From contig NZ_OZ026465.1 of the NCBI RefSeq assembly GCF_964019845.1, positions 1 to 64,000 on the forward strand: a stretch of 64,000 nt of DNA, read 5' to 3'. Shown here piece after piece: positions 48,958 through 60,408 of the stretch. Within the stretch, counting starts at the first letter, position 1. Each line of letters begins with the position of its first letter. The stretch comes from Spiroplasma endosymbiont of Labia minor. Lineage in GTDB: Bacteria > Bacillota_I > Bacilli_A > Mycoplasmatales > Mycoplasmataceae. The position numbers and the translations under genes are program-made. The notes beneath the pieces were generated by a model. The model worked only from the letters and a program-made list of their open reading frames with translations, was not told where the DNA came from and searched no databases.

Positions 48958-48984
48958 CGTAAAATTAATTTGGAGGTTTGCTAT

Positions 48985-49167
48985 ATGGAAATGATTTCTC
49001 CAAAAGATAAAGAAAAAATTATCAAAGAATATGAGAAATCGGGTGTTTCTGCAAAGAATTTTGCACCCACACGTAATATAAGTGACGTTTCACTACGCAA
49101 CTGAACTAAAGCGTATAAAGCCAACGGTATTGATGGCTTATATACAAAATATGACAAAGACAGATAA
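48985..49167 (+). CDS. Stand-alone helix-turn-helix protein (60 aa), transposase-OrfA-like
   Basis: MEMISPKDKEKIIKEYEKSG ... SLRNWTKAYKANGIDGLYTK resembles the N-terminal HTH of IS3/IS481-type transposase OrfA proteins (a K-x-x-I-I-x-x-Y start, then R-N-W-x-x-x-Y-x-x-x-G-x-x-G-L). The ORF stops after 60 residues, and no further transposase frame or terminal inverted repeats are visible. TTGGAGG, a TATAAT promoter and a terminator frame it neatly, so it may be a domesticated small regulator rather than simple debris. Target is unknown. Confidence 0.65.
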
Positions 49168-49212: not shown

Positions 49213-49261
49213 TTTAATTTATGCTAAAATCAATTATGAAATTAGATTTCACGATATATAT

Positions 49262-49415
49262 AAAACATTAATTAGTGTAAAGGGAACAAGGTGTAAATCC
49301 TTGGCTATACCAGTAACTGTAAGATGGATGTTAAAATAATAAACCACTGTATTTAAAAATATGGGAAGGCTATTTTAACAGATGAAGTCAGAGTCAGGAG
49401 ACCTACTAATAAATG
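49262..49415 (+). promoter_or_regulatory. Cobalamin (vitamin B12) riboswitch
   Basis: The conserved blocks occur in order: AAAGGGAACAAGGTGTAAATCC (B12-riboswitch 5' core, 49279-49300), CCAGTAACTG, ACCACTGT (49343-49350), GGGAAGG (49363-49369), GATGAAGTCAGAGTCAGGAGACC (the B12-box, 49381-49403, of which AGTCAGGA is the hallmark). A terminator lies 90 bases downstream, before the ATG of a lipoprotein. Binding of cobalamin is expected to switch the downstream uptake genes off. Outer boundaries are approximate. Confidence 0.93.
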
Positions 49416-49494
49416 AACCAATTTTACTTCTGGTTAAGGTAAATGCGTCAATAATTATTTGATTTTTTAATAGTCGAATAAAAAACGTAATCTT

Positions 49495-49522
49495 AATCAC
49501 AAGACCCCTTGTGATTTTTTAT
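49495..49522 (+). terminator. Attenuator terminator of the cobalamin riboswitch
   Basis: AATCACAAG pairs with CTTGTGATT across a four-base loop and is followed by a T-run. A possible competing stem (AACCA/TGGTT) lies at 49416-49435. The next gene begins 39 bases later. Confidence 0.85.
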
Positions 49523-49560
49523 TTCACCAAAAAATTCAGATTTGAAAGGTAAATAAAATT

Positions 49561-50616
49561 ATGAAAAAATTATTAACAATTTTAATGATAAGCATTTTTG
49601 CTGCAAATTCTCCAATGGTTGTTGCTTGTAGTGCAGCGCCAGAAAATTCATATCCGGGTGATGATGATAATGTTGAATATAAAGATTCAATTATGAGTGT
49701 AAATACAGATGGTGTATCAATAGATGGCGAAATGTATAAATATAATGGCGAAGTCTCTACAGCGGGTAAAGTGATCCCGAATACAAACCTATTAACTATG
49801 ACTTCTAAGGGTGCAAATTCCATTGAAATGGAAAAAAATGATTCAATAGAAATTAATTTAACGGCTTTAAAAAATTATTATGAAGATAATAATTTATCGT
49901 TTGACAAAATAGATCCTTTAGATATGTTTTCAATCGTAGACACAATGACAGCTTCTACAATAAGTCAAGATGGTTGAAAAGGAACTAATCAAGCTTTGTG
50001 AAAATCATCTGCTGATTTTGATTTAAATAACCCATTTGGTCATTACTTGACAAAAGTTTCAGACAATTACTGAACGGTTGGTGGAGATTTTTATGGGTCA
50101 TCATTTTCAGACATTGAATCTGCGGAGACTTTATTTGAAATCAGAAAAACATCAAATTTAACATTTATAATAACATATAATCCATCCGAATTATTTTCAA
50201 GATCAACCACTGCTTATTATTATCTTGCTGGATATATTTGTGATGATGAAGGAAACAGAATTTTAACGGATGAATATTCAAATAACTGACAGATAATTTA
50301 TAATTCATCTTGAATATTTACAGATTTAACAAAAACAGATTTGGATGCATCATTGAATGATTCAACTCAAGGATGAACTATGTTAGATATTGATAATGTT
50401 TATAACTCATCGAATATTTCATTTGACAATGATCCATTTATGAAAAAATATTTGATTGGTACAGAAGATGGGAAATCAACCTACAATTCTATAGTTATTT
50501 CACCCCTGGCATTACACAAAAAAACCATTTGATATTATTTGGAAAAATTCATATCTATAGATATTAAGTATTGATTTGAAAATTATTCTATTAAAGTTCC
50601 TTTAAAAGAAATTTAG
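49561..50616 (+). CDS. Lipoprotein under cobalamin-riboswitch control (candidate B12 capture protein)
   Basis: The 351-residue protein starts MKKLLTILMISIFAANSPMV and has lipobox VVAC with Cys near residue 21. The mature part is rich in Ser, Asp, Tyr and Trp, with no motif I recognise; it is not visibly a BtuF-type protein. Its position as first gene after the riboswitch and seven bases before an ECF S component suggests a surface protein that captures cobalamin or a carrier. That role is inferred from context only. GAAAGGT lies upstream of the ATG. Confidence 0.8.
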
Positions 50617-50622
50617 AAAGAA

Positions 50623-51804
50623 ATGTTACAAGTGAATAAAAAACTATCTAAAAAAACTATTCCAAACATTGCAAAAACTAAAAGATTAGTGGCCATAGCA
50701 GTATTTACGGCAATAGCAATTGTGATAAGGATATCTACTGCATCAATACCGGGTGTCGAATTCGTTACGTTTTTAATTTTAAGTTATGCATTTTTTTTAC
50801 CATTAATGGATTCTTTTATAATTTGTTTTATCACAACTTTAATTGCGACATTACTTACGGGGTTTGGCCCTTGATATTTAGTTCAATTTATTTATTATCC
50901 ACTTTCTGTACTAATTATTTGATTATGTAGAAAATTAATTTTAAACCAATGAATTTTTGCTTCAGTAATAAGTTTTTTTTCTGGCCCTTGAGTAATTTTT
51001 TGATATTTTATGTCAGATTTGACATTAAATAATGTTGTTTATGCAATAGCAAATATATTTACAGCTGTACCAATCGCTTTGATTCAAATGATTGTTTCTT
51101 TTTGCGCTTGTGTTATTTTATTGCCGGGTATAAATAAAATTATGGAAACTTCGGGTACAAGTTTGTATGCACCATACATTAAAATAAATCTGATGAAAAC
51201 TTATCGTTATTCGACTGTTATTAATGGTTTGATAGCATTTGTATTTATATTGGCAGGAATTGTGGGGACTTATTTTTTGTTTCAAACAACTTGATATTTT
51301 ATAACATTACAACATCAATATGTTTGAAAAAATACATATGAATCTAAATACGGTTTACTACCTGAAAAAGAATATAATAAAGTACTAAATAATTTAAAGA
51401 ATAATCAAAGTGCTGTGGTTACTATAATTGGTGATATGAAATTAATTAGTTATGTAACGGTGTTAGATTCAAAAACTAAACTTTCTGAATACATTATTTC
51501 TACAGATAACGAATTATCAGGTGATGATTTTAAAATGGTTTTTGATTATAAAGGATATGGACAAGCAATTTATTTAACGGGTTTCTCTTTAAAAATAGAA
51601 AATCCATATTCTAGTCAAAATCCAGTTCAACATTGAGGTGGAGATTATACAAATAATGCAGGACATGGAACATGTCCTTATATTTTACAAGGATCTAATT
51701 TTGAATCTTCCGGAGCAGGATTTATTAACATTGAAAAAAATGTTGTCTATCAATTTTCATACGATTATATATCAGGAATATCGCATAAATCATGCACTTA
51801 CTAA
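50623..51804 (+). CDS. ECF S-component-like transporter with extracytoplasmic C-terminal domain (candidate cobalamin uptake)
   Basis: The 393-residue protein has an N-terminal membrane part whose first helix AVFTAIAIVIRISTAS and following segments look like ECF S components, in about six or seven helices to residue 225. The last 165 residues are soluble and probably external, ending in a Gly/Asn-rich section with two Cys (HGTCPYIL ... HKSCTY). A fused external domain is unusual for S components. Cotranscription with the lipoprotein behind a B12 riboswitch, and nrdJ downstream, suggest cobalamin as substrate, comparable with CbrT of lactobacilli. No ATPase or EcfT lies here. Confidence 0.75.
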
Positions 51805-51805
51805 C

Positions 51806-51823
51806 TTATCAACATGTGGAAAA
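51806..51823. promoter_or_regulatory. Two head-to-head DnaA-box-like sites before nrdJ
   Basis: TTATCAACA (51806-51814, one mismatch to TTATCCACA) abuts TGTGGAAAA (51815-51823, minus strand TTTTCCACA, one mismatch). The pair is upstream of a terminator and about 100 bases before the nrdJ promoter. DnaA controls RNR genes in some bacteria; here that is speculative. Confidence 0.4.
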
Positions 51824-51861
51824 TTTTTTAAAAATATTTTATATTTTGCACTAACATGATA

Positions 51862-51903
51862 AAATTTGTTTACACGCCCAAAGTGTTAACAAATTTTTTA
51901 TTA
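51862..51903 (+). terminator. Intrinsic terminator between the uptake genes and nrdJ
   Basis: AAATTTGTTTACAC pairs with GTGTTAACAAATTT (one mismatch, loop GCCCAAA) and runs into a T-run. It ends the riboswitch-controlled transcript, so nrdJ probably has its own promoter. Confidence 0.85.
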
Positions 51904-51918
51904 AATTTTTTTAACATT

Positions 51919-51947
51919 TTGCGTATTTCAAATTAATAAGTTATAAA
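51919..51947 (+). promoter_or_regulatory. nrdJ promoter
   Basis: TTGCGT (51919-51924) and TATAAA (51942-51947) are separated by 17 bases, a good sigma-A spacing. The ATG is 32 bases on. No NrdR-box pair is recognised. Confidence 0.6.
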
Positions 51948-51978
51948 TAATGGTAAATTTTAGAAAGAAGATAATTTT

Positions 51979-54522
51979 ATGTACGATAAACAATTAATAG
52001 AGTCTTTAAATAAAGATATAAAGGATCATTTTCCTCATTTAAAACAAATTGAAGAATCATATAGTAAATATTTTGAAGGTGTTTCTCGTTTAGTAATGAT
52101 TGATAGATATTCACAAAAAGACAAAGAATTACTATCTTTAAAAAAAGGTGATTTAATTGTTACTGTCTTAAAAGAAAATTCAGTTTTCCCGGCCAGAGGA
52201 ATAGGAAGAGTAACTCATATAAATAAAGAAAATGAAACAGTTAAAATAGTTGTTGAAGAGGAATTTATAGGTCAAATAGATACTGCAATTTTAGTTGATG
52301 GAACAAATAATATAATCGAGAGACCATTAATTTTAGTCGAAAAACCATTAGAAATATTTTATGAACAAATAGCTTATAGAGTGGCTCACGCTTTGGCTAT
52401 TAATGAGGACTCTAAAAATAAAAATGAAATTGCTGAAGACTTTTTTCATGAACTTTCTGATTTAAACGTAATTCCAGCGGGTCGTGTCTTACATGGTGCT
52501 GGTTCTGGATCAAATGTTACTTTTTTTAATTGCTTTGTAATGCCTATGATTAAAGATTCTAGAACTGGCATTTCAAATCATCGTTCTGAAGTTATGGAAA
52601 TTATGTCACGCGGCGGTGGAGTTGGTACAAATGGTTCTACTTTGCGACCTAAAGGGGAACTTGCAAAAACAGTTGGTGGTAAATCATCTGGAGCAGTTTC
52701 TTGATTGAATGATATAGCTTCTTTAACACATTTAGTTGAACAAGGTGGATCAAGACGCGGAGCACAAATGATTATGATGGCAGATTGACATCCAGATATC
52801 GTTGAATTTATTATTTCAAAAATGCAAAATCCTAAAATTTTACAATGATTAAAAAATAATGCAAAAGATGAATTAATTCGTGAAGAGGCAAGACGTAAAT
52901 TAAAATTTATACCATTAACATATCATGAACAAATAATGTATGAACATTTATTACGTGATCAAACTTTACCAGCTGATGTAATATCTGAAATATCTACTAA
53001 ATTAAATGATGGAGGAATTTGAGAAGTTAATAATCCTAATTTCTTAACTGGTGCAAATATTTCTATAGCAATTACTAATGATTTTATGAATGCAGTTGAG
53101 AAAGATTTAGATTGAGAATTAAAATTTCCAGATATTACAAATTATACAAAATCACAAAAAGAAGCATATGATGAAAAATGATCTTCAATTGGTGATGTTA
53201 GAGTTTGAGAGCAAATGGGTTATAAAATAAAAACTCATCATAAATTAAAAGCAAAAGATTTATGAGATTTAATTAATTTTTGTGCAAATTATTCTGCAGA
53301 ACCTGGAATATTCTTTATGGATGTTGCAAATGAAATGACAAATGCAAAATCATATGGTATGAGTGTTGTAGCTACAAATCCATGTGGTGAACAACCTTTA
53401 GCTGCCTATTCTGTTTGTAATTTAGCAGCAGTTAATTTAGCTAATTTTGTAAATAAGAAAACAGGAGAAATTTTATTTGATAAATTAAAACACACAATTA
53501 CAACAACTGTGCGTATGCAAGATAATGTTATTGATGTTACACCGTATTTTTTAGAGGCAAATAAAAATCAAGCAATTAATGAAAGACGAGTTGGTCTTGG
53601 TGTAATGGGATTACATGATTTATTAATTTGATCAGGATATCGATATGGAAGTAAAAAAGCAAATGAAATAACAGATAAAATATTTGAAGTGATTGCCACA
53701 ACCGCCTATCAAGCTTCTGTTGATTTAGCTAAAATAAAAGGTTCATTTCCATATTTAGAATCTAAAGAAGCATTTATTAATACAGGCTATATGAAAAAAA
53801 TGCCACAAAAAATTAGAGAAGCAGTCTTGCGTGATGGAATAAGAAATTCACATTTATTAACGATTGCCCCAACAGGTTCAACAGGCACAATGGTCGGTGT
53901 GTCAACTGGATTAGAGCCATACTTTGGTTTTAAATTTTATCGTTCTGGAAGATTGGGTAAAAACATTGAAATTAATGCTAGAATTGTTACTGAATATTTA
54001 ACGCAACATTCAGAATATACAGATAAAAATCTACCAGATATTTTTGTTTCAGCAATGGAATTAACGCCAGAAGAACATGTAGATGTACAAACTACAATTC
54101 AAAGATGGGTTGACTCTTCAATATCAAAAACCGTCAATGCGCCAAGAGGCTTTGCTGTAAAAGATGTTGAAAAAATTTATATGCGTTTATTTAAAAATGG
54201 AGCTAAAGGGGGGACTGTTTATGTTGATGGTTCTCGTGATTCACAAGTATTATCATTATCAAATGATGATTCAAAACAAGATCAATCTTCATTTGTACAA
54301 CTTGAAATTGATGAAGTAGCCAAAGCATCTTTAGAGCAAGCAAATAGTCAATTAACAGATTCGGAAACAGAAATCGCTAAATTAAGAGGTTCAAAAATAG
54401 ATAGAAAAATAGGTACAAATATTGGGGATTTATGTCCAATATGTACTGAGGGAACTGTAATTGACATGGGTGGATGTAATACTTGCAATAATTGTAATGT
54501 ACAACTTAAATGTGGTTTATAA
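51979..54522 (+). CDS. nrdJ: Class II ribonucleotide reductase, adenosylcobalamin-dependent
   Basis: The 847-residue enzyme converts ribonucleotides to deoxyribonucleotides using adenosylcobalamin. Seen in order: the NrdJ N-terminal region (LKKGDLIVTVL...FPARGIGRV), NCFVMPMIKDSRTG near residue 188 with the redox Cys, EIMSRGGGVGTNGSTLRPKG, the active-site NPCGEQ near 466 with Cys and Glu, LLTIAPTGSTG near 630, and a C-terminal cysteine-rich redox tail (CPICTEG ... CNTCNNC). No NrdEF or NrdI genes are present. It follows two candidate cobalamin-uptake genes. AGAAAGAAG precedes the ATG. Confidence 0.94.
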
Positions 54523-54580: not shown

Positions 54581-54804
54581 GAGTGTTTTACCAAATGGCA
54601 AGATACTCATATTTATAATTGTTATTATTAATACATTTTCTTAGCAATAATAATTGTCGTAACTTTATTGCTTAATCTGTCCTTATATGGATGTGTTAAT
54701 ATTTTTTTCGATTCCTGCTTTATTAAATAAATTCTGTGATTATTTAATAAAGTGTCTCTTTCAATCGATTTAATTCTCAGCTGCCAATTTAGGCAGCTTT
54801 TTTA
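54581..54804 (+). ncRNA. Candidate structured RNA (about 220 nt) or attenuated leader
   Basis: The 360-base gap after nrdJ holds no ORF, but has a promoter-like TATAAT (54569-54574), an ATGAGT/ACTCAT hairpin, a long hairpin CTTTATTAAATAA/TTATTTAATAAAG (54718-54730 with 54740-54752) enclosed by TCGATT/AATCGA, and a strong GC-rich terminator. I do not recognise SRP, tmRNA, RNase P or any riboswitch class. It could be a free small RNA or an attenuating leader of the lipoprotein gene 79 bases further on. Confidence 0.5.
54779..54804 (+). terminator. Intrinsic terminator of the candidate RNA
   Basis: AGCTGCC pairs with GGCAGCT across a six-base loop and is followed by a T-run. A TATACT -10 candidate for the next gene is at 54823-54828. 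Confidence 0.9.
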
Positions 54805-55668: not shown

Positions 55669-56430
55669 ATGTATAGAGAAGAACGCATATTAATATATTT
55701 TGGATATTTAAACAAACATAAATTTGTTTCAACAAAAGCATTTTTACAATTTGCAAAAAATGAAGATATAAAAGAAATAACAGCCAGAAGAGATTTAATT
55801 AATTTAAAAAACCATGGTTTAATTTCAATGGAATTGGGGCTAATTCAACTTTTAACATCCAAAACCGGAGAAATTCCCAGGATTAAAAAGCAAACTTTAA
55901 ATAATGATTCTAAACTTGAAATAGCCAAAAAAGCTGTTAAATTTTTGTCAAATGATGATGTTATTTTTGTATCTGCTGGAACAACTATGGAAAAATTTAT
56001 TTCAAAAATTCATGTTATTATAGATACTTTATATACAAACGGACTTGAAATCGTTAGGGAAGCTTCAAAAAATCCATATATTAAAAAAATAATTTTATTT
56101 GGAGGTAGATTTCGTTCTAAATCAAGTTCAGTTGTTGGCACATTTGCTTTAAGAGAAATTGAACAAATGCGATTTTTTAAAGCTTTTTTTTCAGTAACTA
56201 ATTTAGATTCTAATGGTACATTATGAAATAATCATATAGAAGAAGCCATAGTTTTAAATGAAATTATAAAAAAATCTAATTATTCATATTTATTGTTGGA
56301 TGATTCTAAAATTGGCAGTTTAGGAACATCAAAAGTTTGTTATTTATCTGAGGTAACACATTTCATTACAAACAAAAATGAAAGTAAAGATCAAATTGAT
56401 AGACTAAGTAAATTCACCAATATTATCTAG
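55669..56430 (+). CDS. DeoR/LacR-type transcriptional regulator
   Basis: This 253-residue regulator has an N-terminal HTH (VSTKAFLQFAKNEDIKEITARRDL, residues 20-43, the DeoR pattern with 'T-x-R-R-D') and a C-terminal sugar-phosphate sensor domain with the SAGTTM loop near 105 and the GGRFR segment near 145. Located ahead of PTS and lacAB genes, it likely senses a galactose/tagatose phosphate. GATGAGG precedes the ATG. It is followed by a terminator and by possible operators. Confidence 0.85.
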
Positions 56431-56444
56431 TTTAATGTTTTGAT

Positions 56445-56472
56445 AAAAATGATATTTTATTATCATTTTTTT
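56445..56472 (+). terminator. Intrinsic terminator after the DeoR-type gene
   Basis: AAAAATGATA pairs with TATCATTTTT across a six-base loop, with a T-tail. Confidence 0.85.
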
Positions 56473-56512
56473 TGTTTTTGTAAAGTTTTTTTGTTGCAAA
56501 GAAATGGGTGAT

Positions 56513-56546
56513 GCATAAAAATATGCTTAGGAAGTAAACATACTTC
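56513..56546. promoter_or_regulatory. Two inverted repeats before the PTS operon (candidate operators)
   Basis: GCATA-AAAA-TATGC (56513-56526) and GAAGT-AAACAT-ACTTC (56531-56546) lie side by side, 17-50 bases before the EIICB ATG. They suit binding sites for the DeoR-type regulator, or mRNA hairpins. No clear -10 box is identified. Confidence 0.45.
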
Positions 56547-56562
56547 GTAGAAAGGAAATATA

Positions 56563-58587
56563 ATGCAAAAAGAAAAAGCAATTGCAAAGCAAAAAATTCC
56601 TGTCAGCAAACGTATGGAAAACTGAATGAACAAAAATTTAGTACCCGTATTAAAAGTGGTAGCAGCGAATAAATATTTGCGCGCTTTAATGGAAGGTTTT
56701 TATGTAACGTTACCAATAATTGTCTTTTCATCAATTATTGGAATAATTATGTGAGTTCCACCAGCAATTCATGGTGATATGGCATGATATCCACTTGTAG
56801 CACGACGTTGTTTGATGAGAATTTATTCATTGACAATGGGCTTAGTGTCACTTTGATTTACTATGGGTATTTCGGTCGCTTTGGCAGAAAAATTAAATGC
56901 TCAATTACCTGTTGGAAGAAAAATGAATATTATGATGGTAGCTTTTGCAGCCGGATCTGCAATATTCATGATGTCAGTATCTGGAACATTTGCAATTAAT
57001 TCAGACGGCACCGGTACTGAAAATTTTGCTAGTTTATTAATTAGTAATTTAGGGGCCCAAGGAATGCTAACTGGTATTATTGTTGGTTTAACATTACCTT
57101 GAGTTTTTTATCTACCCGTTCGTTTTGGTTGAACAATAAAATTACCGAAAGCCGTTCCGCAAGGTGTATCACAATCATTTGCAGATGTGATTCCCTATGG
57201 ATTATCTGTACTTGTATATTGAGGATTTGGCTATATTTTCATTGGTATATTAGATGAATCGTTTACGGATGCGTTGTTTAGGGCAATTAAACCTATATTT
57301 AATGGCTTGGATTCATATGGTTTCTTAGCAGCTGTGGCATTTTTAACAGCTTTTATATGATTTATAGGTGTTCATGGTCCATCGGTTACTCGTCCGTTTT
57401 TGACTCCATTCATGTATTCAAATCTTTCAGATAATCAAGCATTATTAGCTCAAGGACAACATCCCCACTGAGCTTTAACATATGAATTTTCATATGACTT
57501 TACATCAACTTTAGGAGGAACTGGGTGTACGTTTGTAATACCAATTCTCTTTATATTATTTGCAAAATCTAAACAATTAAAAGCCGTAGGTTTTGCATCA
57601 TATATTCCGATTTGATTTCAAGTAAATGAACCAGCTTTATTTGGTGCACCTATGATATTGAATCCAATTTACATGTTGCCATTCTTTATCTTACCTATTA
57701 TTAATATTGTAATTTATAAATTCTTTATTGATGTTTTAGGTATGAATGGGGCAATAGCTGATGTACCGTGATCGATGCCGGCCGTTGCTGGTTTACTGAT
57801 TGGTTCTGCATTTGATCCTCTAACGGCTTTATTATGAATAGTAATGGTAACTATTGATTTCTTCTTTTATATACCGTTCGTATTAATTCATGATAAAATG
57901 GTTTGCAGTGATGAATTAAAAACTGCAGAAGAAAAACACATTGTTAAACCACTTCATTTTTCTTATTTCACTTTAATCTATCTCGGCTTAAAATCTAAAA
58001 TGAATGCAAATTCTGAAAAACGTGCGTTAGCTGCCAATTTATTGAAACAAATTAATGTTGAAAGAAAAGATGTTCGCTTAGCTGTAAAACAAGAGAGAAT
58101 TGAAAATAAAGCAGCTATGGCTGCGGAAGCTTTAAGAATTAAAGAAGAAAAATCTTTAGCTAGAGCAGCTAGAAAAAATCCTGCTTTAAAAGCAAAAATA
58201 GAAAATGAAAATAAATCAAATCAAACACAAATATTAGATACAAAAAAAGAAATAAACGTTTTAGTAATTTGTTATGGTGCTGGGTCATCTGCAATGATGG
58301 CTCAATCAGCAACAAAAGGTGCAGTAGCTCGTGGAATACAAAATTTGAAATTTGATTCAGCAGCGTATGGTGCACACGCAGATAAATTTAATCATGCGGA
58401 CTTAATTATATTGTCTCCACAAGTAAAAATGTATTACGATGACTTTAAATTAGCTTTAAAACCAAATCAATTTATAGTGCAAACTAGTGGAAAACAATAT
58501 GTTGATGCTACAAAAAATAAAGATTTAGCAATAGATTTAGTAATTGAAAATTTACCGGAAAATTCTATTAAATATGGTAGTGATTAA
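56563..58587 (+). CDS. lacE: PTS lactose/cellobiose-family EIICB component
   Basis: The 674-residue transporter has an EIIC membrane domain with about ten helices ([15 protein letters not shown] ... [14 protein letters not shown] ... [14 protein letters not shown], the sugar-site NEP motif) to about residue 455. A charged linker rich in Lys/Ala/Glu follows (about 470-560), and then an EIIB domain with the phosphorylation Cys in [11 protein letters not shown] at residue 570. The EIIB loop differs somewhat from the usual CAGGGTS. Sugar is likely lactose or galactose, judged from the LacAB neighbours. GAAAGGAAAT precedes the ATG. Confidence 0.85.
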
Positions 58588-58614
58588 AAATAAATAATTG
58601 TAAGAGGTGTAATA

Positions 58615-59124
58615 ATGAATATTAGATTTAGAAGAAGATTAAATTTTTGATGAGCTTTAATTTCACTGTTAATTGTCATGTCTGTTTTTTTAATTATTCT
58701 TTTTACTATTAATTCAAATTACAATAAAATGATTTGAGTAGATTTTATTATAGAAGCTGGAGGAGGAATTGGGATATTTTGAACATATTATCTAATTAGA
58801 TTTTGTTTTTCAAAAACTAGATATCCTTTTGTAACTGCAGATAGAAATGATTTTGAAAGTAAATTTGGAAAATTAATATCAGAACAAATGTGATTTTGAT
58901 TATGATTTTTGCCTATTTTGCTAGCTATAATTATTCCTGTTATATATTTTTTATCAGTTGCAATGTCATTTCAATTTCAACTTGATAAAAATAAAATTTG
59001 AAGAATCGTTATTTTTATAATTATTTCTCTGATATTAATTACAAATAATATTTCTTATTTAATTGTTGTTCGAAATAAAGGACAAGAAATTACAAACAAT
59101 TTTGATGTTAGACCACAAAATTAA
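58615..59124 (+). CDS. Small membrane protein of the sugar operon, unknown function
   Basis: The 169-residue protein is visible only when its seven or more UGA codons are read as Trp. It has a basic N-terminus (MNIRFRRRLNFWW) and four hydrophobic segments (about residues 12-32, 44-62, 95-118, 132-153). AGAGGTGT precedes the ATG. It sits between the EIICB and EIIA genes with short gaps. No family is recognised. Confidence 0.75.
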
Positions 59125-59143
59125 TTATGGAAAGTAGATATTT

Positions 59144-59464
59144 ATGACAAAACAAGATGTAACCTATAAGGGAATTGAACTAGTAGGTATTGCGGGAGAC
59201 GCAAGAGCTGATTATTTAATAGCAATAAAAAAAGCTAGCGAAGGCAAATTTGATGAAGCAAGAAAATTAGTTGCAACAGCATCAGATACTTTAACACAAG
59301 CACATATTGCACAAACAGAAATGCTCCAAGAAGAGGCTAAAGAAAATTATTCTGATGTAACTTTATTGATGGTACATGGACAAGATCATTTAATGACCAC
59401 TGTTTTATTGAGAGATTTAGTAAATACCATAATTGATTTGTATGAAAGAATAGGGAAAAAGTAA
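59144..59464 (+). CDS. lacF: PTS lactose/cellobiose-family EIIA component
   Basis: The 106-residue protein is a typical all-helical EIIA(Lac). AHIAQTEMLQEEA (residues 53-65) and MVHGQDHLM place the phosphorylated histidine at residue 78, the same number as in known EIIA(Lac). It passes phosphate from HPr to the EIICB. Its stop codon overlaps the lacA ATG (TAATG), so translation is coupled. Confidence 0.92.
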   Translation: MTKQDVTYKGIELVGIAGDARADYLIAIKKASEGKFDEARKLVATASDTLTQAHIAQTEMLQEEAKENYSDVTLLMVHGQDHLMTTVLLRDLVNTIIDLYERIGKK

Positions 59465-59898
59465 TGAAAGTAATTATTACAACAAATAAATTTCATAGTT
59501 TAGTTAGTAAACTCTCAAAAGAGTTAATTAAATTAAATTTTGAAGTTATTTTACCTTTGGAAAATAAAGATGTAGATATTTTTGAAGCCGGAGTTGAAGC
59601 TGCAAATTATATAATTTCAAAAAAAGCAGATCGTGGAATAATCATTGATGAATATGGTTCTGGCGGATTTATGGTAGCTTCTAAAGTAAAAGGTACAATT
59701 GTTGCCCAACTTGCTGATGAACATTCGGCACATATGACTAGAGGGCACAACAACACAAATATTATTACAGTAGGGGCCAATTTAACAGCTTTTGAACAAC
59801 TTAAAAAAATTATAATTAAATATTTAACAGCTGATTTTGAAGGTGGACGCCATATGGTGAGAATAGATATGTTAGATGAAATGTTGAGGGATGAGTAA
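59464..59898 (+). CDS. lacA: Galactose-6-phosphate isomerase subunit LacA
   Basis: The 144-residue RpiB/LacAB-fold protein has the LacA pattern: a degenerate active-site loop (IIIDEYGSGGFMVASKVKG) and EHSAHMTRGHNNTNIITVGA near residues 87-106. With LacB it forms the heteromeric isomerase that makes tagatose 6-phosphate. lacB begins in the base after the stop codon, with GAGGGATGAG as ribosome site. Confidence 0.88.
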   Translation: MKVIITTNKFHSLVSKLSKELIKLNFEVILPLENKDVDIFEAGVEAANYIISKKADRGIIIDEYGSGGFMVASKVKGTIVAQLADEHSAHMTRGHNNTNIITVGANLTAFEQLKKIIIKYLTADFEGGRHMVRIDMLDEMLRDE

Positions 59899-60408
59899 AT
59901 GAAAATTGTTGTAGGTTGTGATCATATCGTAACTGATATTAAAAATAAAGCAAAAGAATATTTACAATCACTTGGACATGAAATTATTGACGTTGGAACA
60001 TTTGATAATGTTCGTACTCATTACCCAATTTTTGGACATAAAGCAGCTAGCTTGGTGGCTCAAGGTAAAGCTGATTTTGCATGTATAATGTGTGGCACTG
60101 GAGTCGGTATTGCAAATGCAGCAAATAAAACAAAAGGTGCAAGATGTGCATTAGTTAGAGATGTTTCATCGGCGGTTCAAGCTAGAGAAGAATTTAATGC
60201 AAACGTAATCGCTGTTGGTGGTAGAATTACAGGTCTTGGTTTAATAGAAGAAATTTACAAAACTTTTATTGAAACAAAATTCCAACCAACCCCTGAAAAA
60301 TTAGCTATTATTAAAAAAATTGATTCATTGATTAAGAAAGATAACTATCAAGATGATATGTTTGATTTAGAATGTCAAAGATGAGACGAAGGTTATTATC
60401 ACGATTAA
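59899..60408 (+). CDS. lacB: Galactose-6-phosphate isomerase subunit LacB
   Basis: This 169-residue partner of LacA (usual length about 171) has GCDHIVTDIKNKAKEYL at the start, the catalytic-Cys loop CGTGVGIANAANK near residue 72, and the ending ECQRWDEGYYHD typical of LacB. RpiB would be an alternative, but the paired LacA and the C-terminus favour LacB. Confidence 0.9.

Follow-up and report, generated by a model that had tools for sequence, protein, structure and literature searches.

Can a mollicute make its deoxynucleotides with a ribonucleotide reductase (RNR) that depends on adenosylcobalamin (AdoCbl), and does it carry the genes needed to fetch and activate that cofactor? Class I RNRs are what one generally expects in mollicutes, and these bacteria are not known for B12 use. 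We found, in open-licence full texts, no earlier report of a mollicute or Spiroplasma NrdJ, class II RNR or cobalamin riboswitch. A 2009 survey of 17 mollicute genomes recorded B12 use in none of them; 88.2% were without either metal, and the remaining two were nickel users (PMC2667541).

The stretch of DNA analysed here (the ‘window’) covers positions 1-64000 of a genome assembled as one contig (984,411 bases, 97.9% complete); reading frames were taken in code 4, with TGA as Trp, and presence or absence across the genome was established through family-by-family searches. A first-pass annotation had described four parts in series, the first a cobalamin riboswitch, followed by genes for a lipoprotein, an ECF S-component-like protein and NrdJ, and all four are indeed found, in that order and on the + strand, with nrdJ intact (Table 1). 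Judged from its genes, we think it highly probable that the organism has a complete system for scavenging B12 and for using it in dNTP synthesis. The components all belong to known families; what appears to be new is a sole, B12-obligate RNR in a mollicute, an extended form of CbrT, and a regulon built around dNTP supply.

Table 1. Features of the B12 locus, in window coordinates.
Feature	Position	Strand	Basis
Cobalamin riboswitch aptamer	49256-49424	+	RF00174 (Rfam), full-length over model positions 1-189; 87.2 bits, E 3.7e-20
Candidate antiterminator	49431-49499	+	RNA folding of growing leader; candidate from folding alone
Intrinsic-terminator-like hairpin, then U tract (expression platform)	49495-49516	+	9 pairs
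Lipoprotein gene, 351 aa	49561-50616	+	Code 4 ORF; signal peptide ending VVAC
CbrT-family ECF S component, 393 aa	50623-51804	+	Code 4 ORF; family profile versus 6fnp
S-component domains: S domain, ~aa 1-190; C-terminal TM and extracellular extension, ~aa 200-393			
Terminator-like hairpin separating the S-component gene from nrdJ, then U tract	51861-51897	+	-11.9 kcal/mol
NrdJ, 847 aa, AdoCbl-dependent class II RNR	51979-54522	+	NF005991, TIGR02504; active-site residues
Terminator-like hairpin 3' of nrdJ	54779-54798	+	7 pairs, 5 G-C, U tract

The enzyme itself is readily recognised. NrdJ passes two equivalog cut-offs (NF005991, 1294.8 bits against 854; TIGR02504, 562.9 bits against 400), and both its NPCGE thiyl cysteine and its redox cysteine pair align with those of the Thermotoga class II enzyme TmNrdJ (1xje); residues N467, C469, E471, C185 and C480, which align with 1xje, are invariant in nine mollicute NrdJs. 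The assignment to the AdoCbl-dependent class II enzymes is thereby borne out. NrdJ is also the sole PF02867 match, and therefore the only RNR large subunit encoded in the genome; family searches of the whole genome returned no nrdE, no match to the R2 subunit NrdF (PF00268) and no anaerobic NrdD. By these profile matches NrdJ is a class II RNR and the sole RNR of the genome, and since there is no other it would, with AdoCbl, carry out all of the cell's reduction of ribonucleotides to deoxynucleotides. Such a dependence implies a growth requirement for B12 that is open to direct test.

It could be argued that the organism relies chiefly on salvaged deoxynucleosides, with NrdJ dispensable or already decaying, as nrdJ has been lost or broken in relatives (stops or fragments in G195, G305 and G307-G309) and some relatives place a deoD-dNK-tkt-eda-ndt operon under the riboswitch. 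We regard this as unlikely, given that nrdJ here is a full 847-codon frame that keeps the invariant catalytic residues.

A B12-dependent RNR calls attention to the source of its cofactor, and here the S component is central. Taken as a single sequence, it gives a weak match to PF12822 (ECF_trnsprt; E 2.5e-4, below the Pfam cut-off), is longer than the usual S component, and has ECF-CbrT (6fnp, E 0.02) as its top and sole plausible match in the PDB; a single-sequence search of GTDB contigs found no relatives, and a single-sequence fold was unusable (pLDDT 43). A family profile, built from relatives that sit beside B12 riboswitches or nrdJ, matches 6fnp at 2.2e-25, the match spanning positions 8-169 out of 177, and a Mycoplasmatales-only version, with the non-mollicute rows removed, still does so at 5.5e-18; the next solved S component in these searches lies at E 0.08-0.1. 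By profile comparison the protein is a homologue of the CbrT (cobalamin) family, and is thus predicted to bind and transport B12. The B12 role first given to both membrane-associated genes from their position has accordingly gained an independent footing for the S component, through CbrT homology, and still depends on position for the lipoprotein.

S components have a common fold, and a single protein that falls under the Pfam cut-off might carry a different vitamin, its place between riboswitch and nrdJ being due to chance. We find this very hard to credit, both from the gulf between the 5.5e-18 match to CbrT and the next S component (E 0.08) and from the company that the family keeps: three genomes (G197-G199) encode it as a fusion with a CobA-type adenosyltransferase, and in 320 genomes it is never seen without NrdJ. 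The fusion and the co-occurrence, along with an Erysipelotrichales operon described below, link the CbrT-type S component to B12 independently of this locus. Natural fusions of a CbrT-like S component with CobA/BtuR are seen directly downstream of nrdJ at L059 3995-5071, L060 3996-5072 and L061 4009-5085.

The S component is solitary; its energising module is encoded elsewhere, as a complete EcfA1A2T set within 775000-788000 of the genome, where EcfT (781273-782004, 132 bits) is adjoined by two EcfA ATPases (EcfA1 and EcfA2). The search for a cobalamin adenosyltransferase, which the first-pass annotation had called for, revealed one of the CobA/BtuR type at 661101-661622 (PF02572, 126.2 bits against a gathering score of 25.7), no PduO-type enzyme being present in the genome. 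Against the NCBIfam cobA equivalog TIGR00708 this protein reaches 69 bits, below the cut-off of 167.75, so that it is best described as a diverged homologue with a predicted activity. The opposite combination of genes, intact nrdEF with neither adenosyltransferase nor EcfAT, is on every count not what this genome holds. With NrdJ, CobA, EcfAAT and a CbrT-type S component all present, there is a candidate gene for each step from import to use, and the proposal of a B12-dependent deoxynucleotide supply, with NrdJ as sole RNR and the riboswitch alongside, has held up well. We have, then, what looks to be a mollicute with an AdoCbl-dependent enzyme as its only RNR and all of the parts to fetch and activate B12.

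The same parts travel together across the Mycoplasmatales. In a sample of 320 genomes, for which the Fisher P values ignore shared ancestry, CobA is found in 42 of the 44 genomes that have NrdJ (1e-42), all 33 genomes with strong S-component matches also have NrdJ (33/33; 8e-36), and the riboswitch is present in 32 of the 44. NrdJ is apparently intact in 34 of the 320, 18 of which, this genome included, are without NrdF. In the NrdJ tree, obtained with a quick method that leaves long branches unsure, the Mycoplasmatales rows group by genome family, which favours a history of inheritance with repeated loss; this is the reading that we prefer, and horizontal gain of nrdJ is disfavoured on the same grounds. 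Copies of nrdJ broken by stops or fragmented occur in G195, G305, G307, G308, G309 and G315.

Turning to regulation, the riboswitch is present as a single copy in the genome and its Rfam score is far over the gathering score of 31.5 bits, so the comparison with the Cobalamin model leaves its family in no doubt. The terminator claimed to follow it is likewise there, as a terminator-like hairpin with a U tract. Folding of the growing leader yields a long helix, in which 49431-49440 pairs with 49490-49499. This helix shares bases with the 5' side of the terminator stem, and the two would be mutually exclusive. Across the order, a terminator-like hairpin lies just 3' of the riboswitch in 10 of 30 riboswitch loci, with 0.1 expected from shuffles. 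The RF00174 element is predicted to bind cobalamin, and we infer from this arrangement that it probably switches towards termination when it does so.

What the riboswitch governs is a separate matter. All four parts share a strand and an order, the S component and nrdJ being just 174 nt apart, and in Erysipelotrichales the S component, PduO and nrdJ are contiguous behind a single riboswitch; riboswitch, lipoprotein, S component and nrdJ might then form one operon, repressed throughout by B12. We consider this the less probable arrangement, albeit one with a real chance of being correct, in that a terminator-like hairpin with U tract separates the S component from nrdJ (z -4.4, equalled in 0/200 shuffles), related Spiroplasma-like genomes carry nrdJ on the opposite strand, beyond the reach of the riboswitch, and repression by B12 of a B12-using enzyme would make little sense. 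The intervening hairpin suggests instead that the riboswitch probably controls the uptake genes only, with B12 repressing uptake and nrdJ probably being transcribed separately.

How cobalamin is captured at the cell surface is the most speculative part of the picture. The lipoprotein falls into no recognised domain family and has no relatives with which it can be aligned; lipoprotein genes at the same position, before the S component or a DUF4430-S pair, occur in G014, G067, G068, G069, G155 and G179, and when these proteins are aligned with that of the window their similarity is confined to the signal peptide. From gene position, we propose that it may act in surface capture of B12. Identity as a DUF4430 protein is not claimed: it scores 11.4 bits with the DUF4430-like family profile, the top score among 1007 other mollicute stretches, but with the matching pieces out of order.

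The second candidate for capture is the C-terminal extension of the S component, which recurs, with its TM segment, in G014, G067, G068 and G069, in each case immediately preceded by a lipoprotein gene, just like its counterpart in the window. In many relatives, by comparison, the S component is accompanied by a small protein that combines an N-terminal TM helix with a DUF4430-like domain; the profile of this family matches the DUF4430-type structure 3u7z at 2.3e-11, 3 of 15 members match Pfam DUF4430, and the present genome has no free protein of this kind. DUF4430 is present in the C-terminal region of vertebrate B12 carriers (PMC4350170). The extension may itself be a DUF4430 (transcobalamin beta-like) domain. 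Its match to the DUF4430-like profile is collinear but weak (5.8 bits, which 33 of 2863 shuffles also attain), hhalign against the family returns E 0.001 with a probability of 8%, and Pfam PF14478 gives no match to it, the extension of the related L038 reaching 17.1 bits, under the gathering score of 23.8. Folded with DUF4430 rows, the extension yields a beta-rich model of low confidence (pLDDT 48) for which Foldseek has no match at E < 0.001, and a shared fold is not claimed. With a weak profile match and a fold model of low confidence, fusion of a DUF4430 partner onto the S component is a hypothesis, and we tentatively entertain, at somewhat less than even weight, a protein in which a transcobalamin-beta-like domain captures B12 at the surface and hands it directly to the CbrT pocket, in a bacterium wholly dependent on scavenged B12 for DNA synthesis. 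If true, this would be a one-piece ‘capture-and-transport’ S component. The likeness to the C-terminal domain of transcobalamin and intrinsic factor (PMC4350170) is carried by the DUF4430-like protein beside CbrT in relatives and, possibly, by the extension in the window; the bacterial proteins differ from the vertebrate carriers in having no alpha domain and in being membrane-anchored, and their B12 binding is putative.

Bringing these elements together, we suggest the following model. When cobalamin is scarce, the leader would let transcription reach the lipoprotein and CbrT-type S component genes; the S component, aided by the lipoprotein, by the extension that it bears outside the cell, or by both, would bind presumably scavenged cobalamin and dock, so loaded, on the shared EcfA1A2T for import. 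The CobA-type enzyme would then attach the adenosyl group, supplying NrdJ, whose gene probably has a transcript to itself. Once cobalamin is abundant, the riboswitch would stop the uptake genes by termination.

Two arrangements in other bacteria bear comparison with this one, a parallel with the first having been drawn at the outset. Lactobacillus delbrueckii has an nrdJ-cbrS-cbrT-pduO cluster, and cobalamin transport by its CbrT has been demonstrated (PMC5997447); it shares with the present organism a class II RNR, a CbrT S component served by a shared ECF module, a cobalamin adenosyltransferase and B12 auxotrophy, here predicted from genes. Our genome differs in several respects: it encodes a CobA-type adenosyltransferase, at a distance of 600 kb; the gene in front of that for CbrT specifies a lipoprotein; CbrT itself bears a C-terminal extracellular extension; and the organism is a mollicute that reads TGA as Trp. 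CbrS of L. delbrueckii is, at a guess, a DUF4430 protein. The Erysipelotrichales operon (DUF4430-like protein, CbrT homologue, PduO, NrdJ) is preceded by a B12 riboswitch in 4 of 10 loci scanned (L086, L088, L092, L097) and is alike in riboswitch family, CbrT homologue, NrdJ (~60% identity) and order; it is unlike in having a separate small membrane-anchored DUF4430-like protein, where the window has a lipoprotein and an extension, and in holding PduO inside the operon.

In the relatives the riboswitch reaches further. Among 79 matches in the order, 23 precede an S component and 21 precede nrdF, which in the loci that were read is followed by nrdI and nrdE; distances of 0.2-0.45 kb to nrdF are seen in the nrdFIE operons of L009, L017, L019, L022, L028, L029, L078, L080 and others. 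B12 thus probably represses the B12-independent RNR in these organisms, much as a B12 riboswitch controls the B12-independent RNR isoenzyme of Streptomyces nrdABS; the present genome differs from Streptomyces in having no second RNR, its riboswitch probably acting on uptake genes only. One riboswitch would then decide, in those relatives, between B12-dependent and B12-independent dNTP supply. A riboswitch also stands before a deoD-deoxynucleoside kinase-transketolase-KHG/KDPG aldolase-nucleoside deoxyribosyltransferase operon (L068 2866-8033, L071, L195, L197, L199, L202, L207 and L208), where deoxynucleoside salvage is apparently under B12 control. Its position before nrdFIE or salvage genes in relatives identifies dNTP supply, together with B12 uptake, as the theme that the predicted riboswitch loci share.

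Two genomes, G284 and G291, keep NrdJ and CobA, are missing the S component, and have a lipoprotein-FecCD-FecCD-ATPase transporter behind a weak riboswitch match. The loci L211 and L212 (963-4901), from genomes that have NrdJ and CobA but lack the S component, show such a match (27-30 bits, below cut-off), followed by genes for a lipoprotein, a pair of FecCD permeases and an ABC ATPase; a FecCD-type ABC transporter likely replaces the ECF importer in the L211/L212 genomes. Weak matches (22-27 bits, below cut-off) also lie upstream of nrdF in G183, G188, G189 and G190, which are without NrdJ, and are possible riboswitch relics.

Within the window, a short frame directly 5' of the riboswitch (48980-49167) matches the transposase-type HTH family PF01527 at 22.7 bits, just under the cut-off, and looks like an insertion-sequence remnant. 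Just past the module, at 55669-60408, lies a sugar-use cluster with a DeoR-family regulator, lactose-type PTS IIC/IIB and sugar-isomerase-subunit-like genes.
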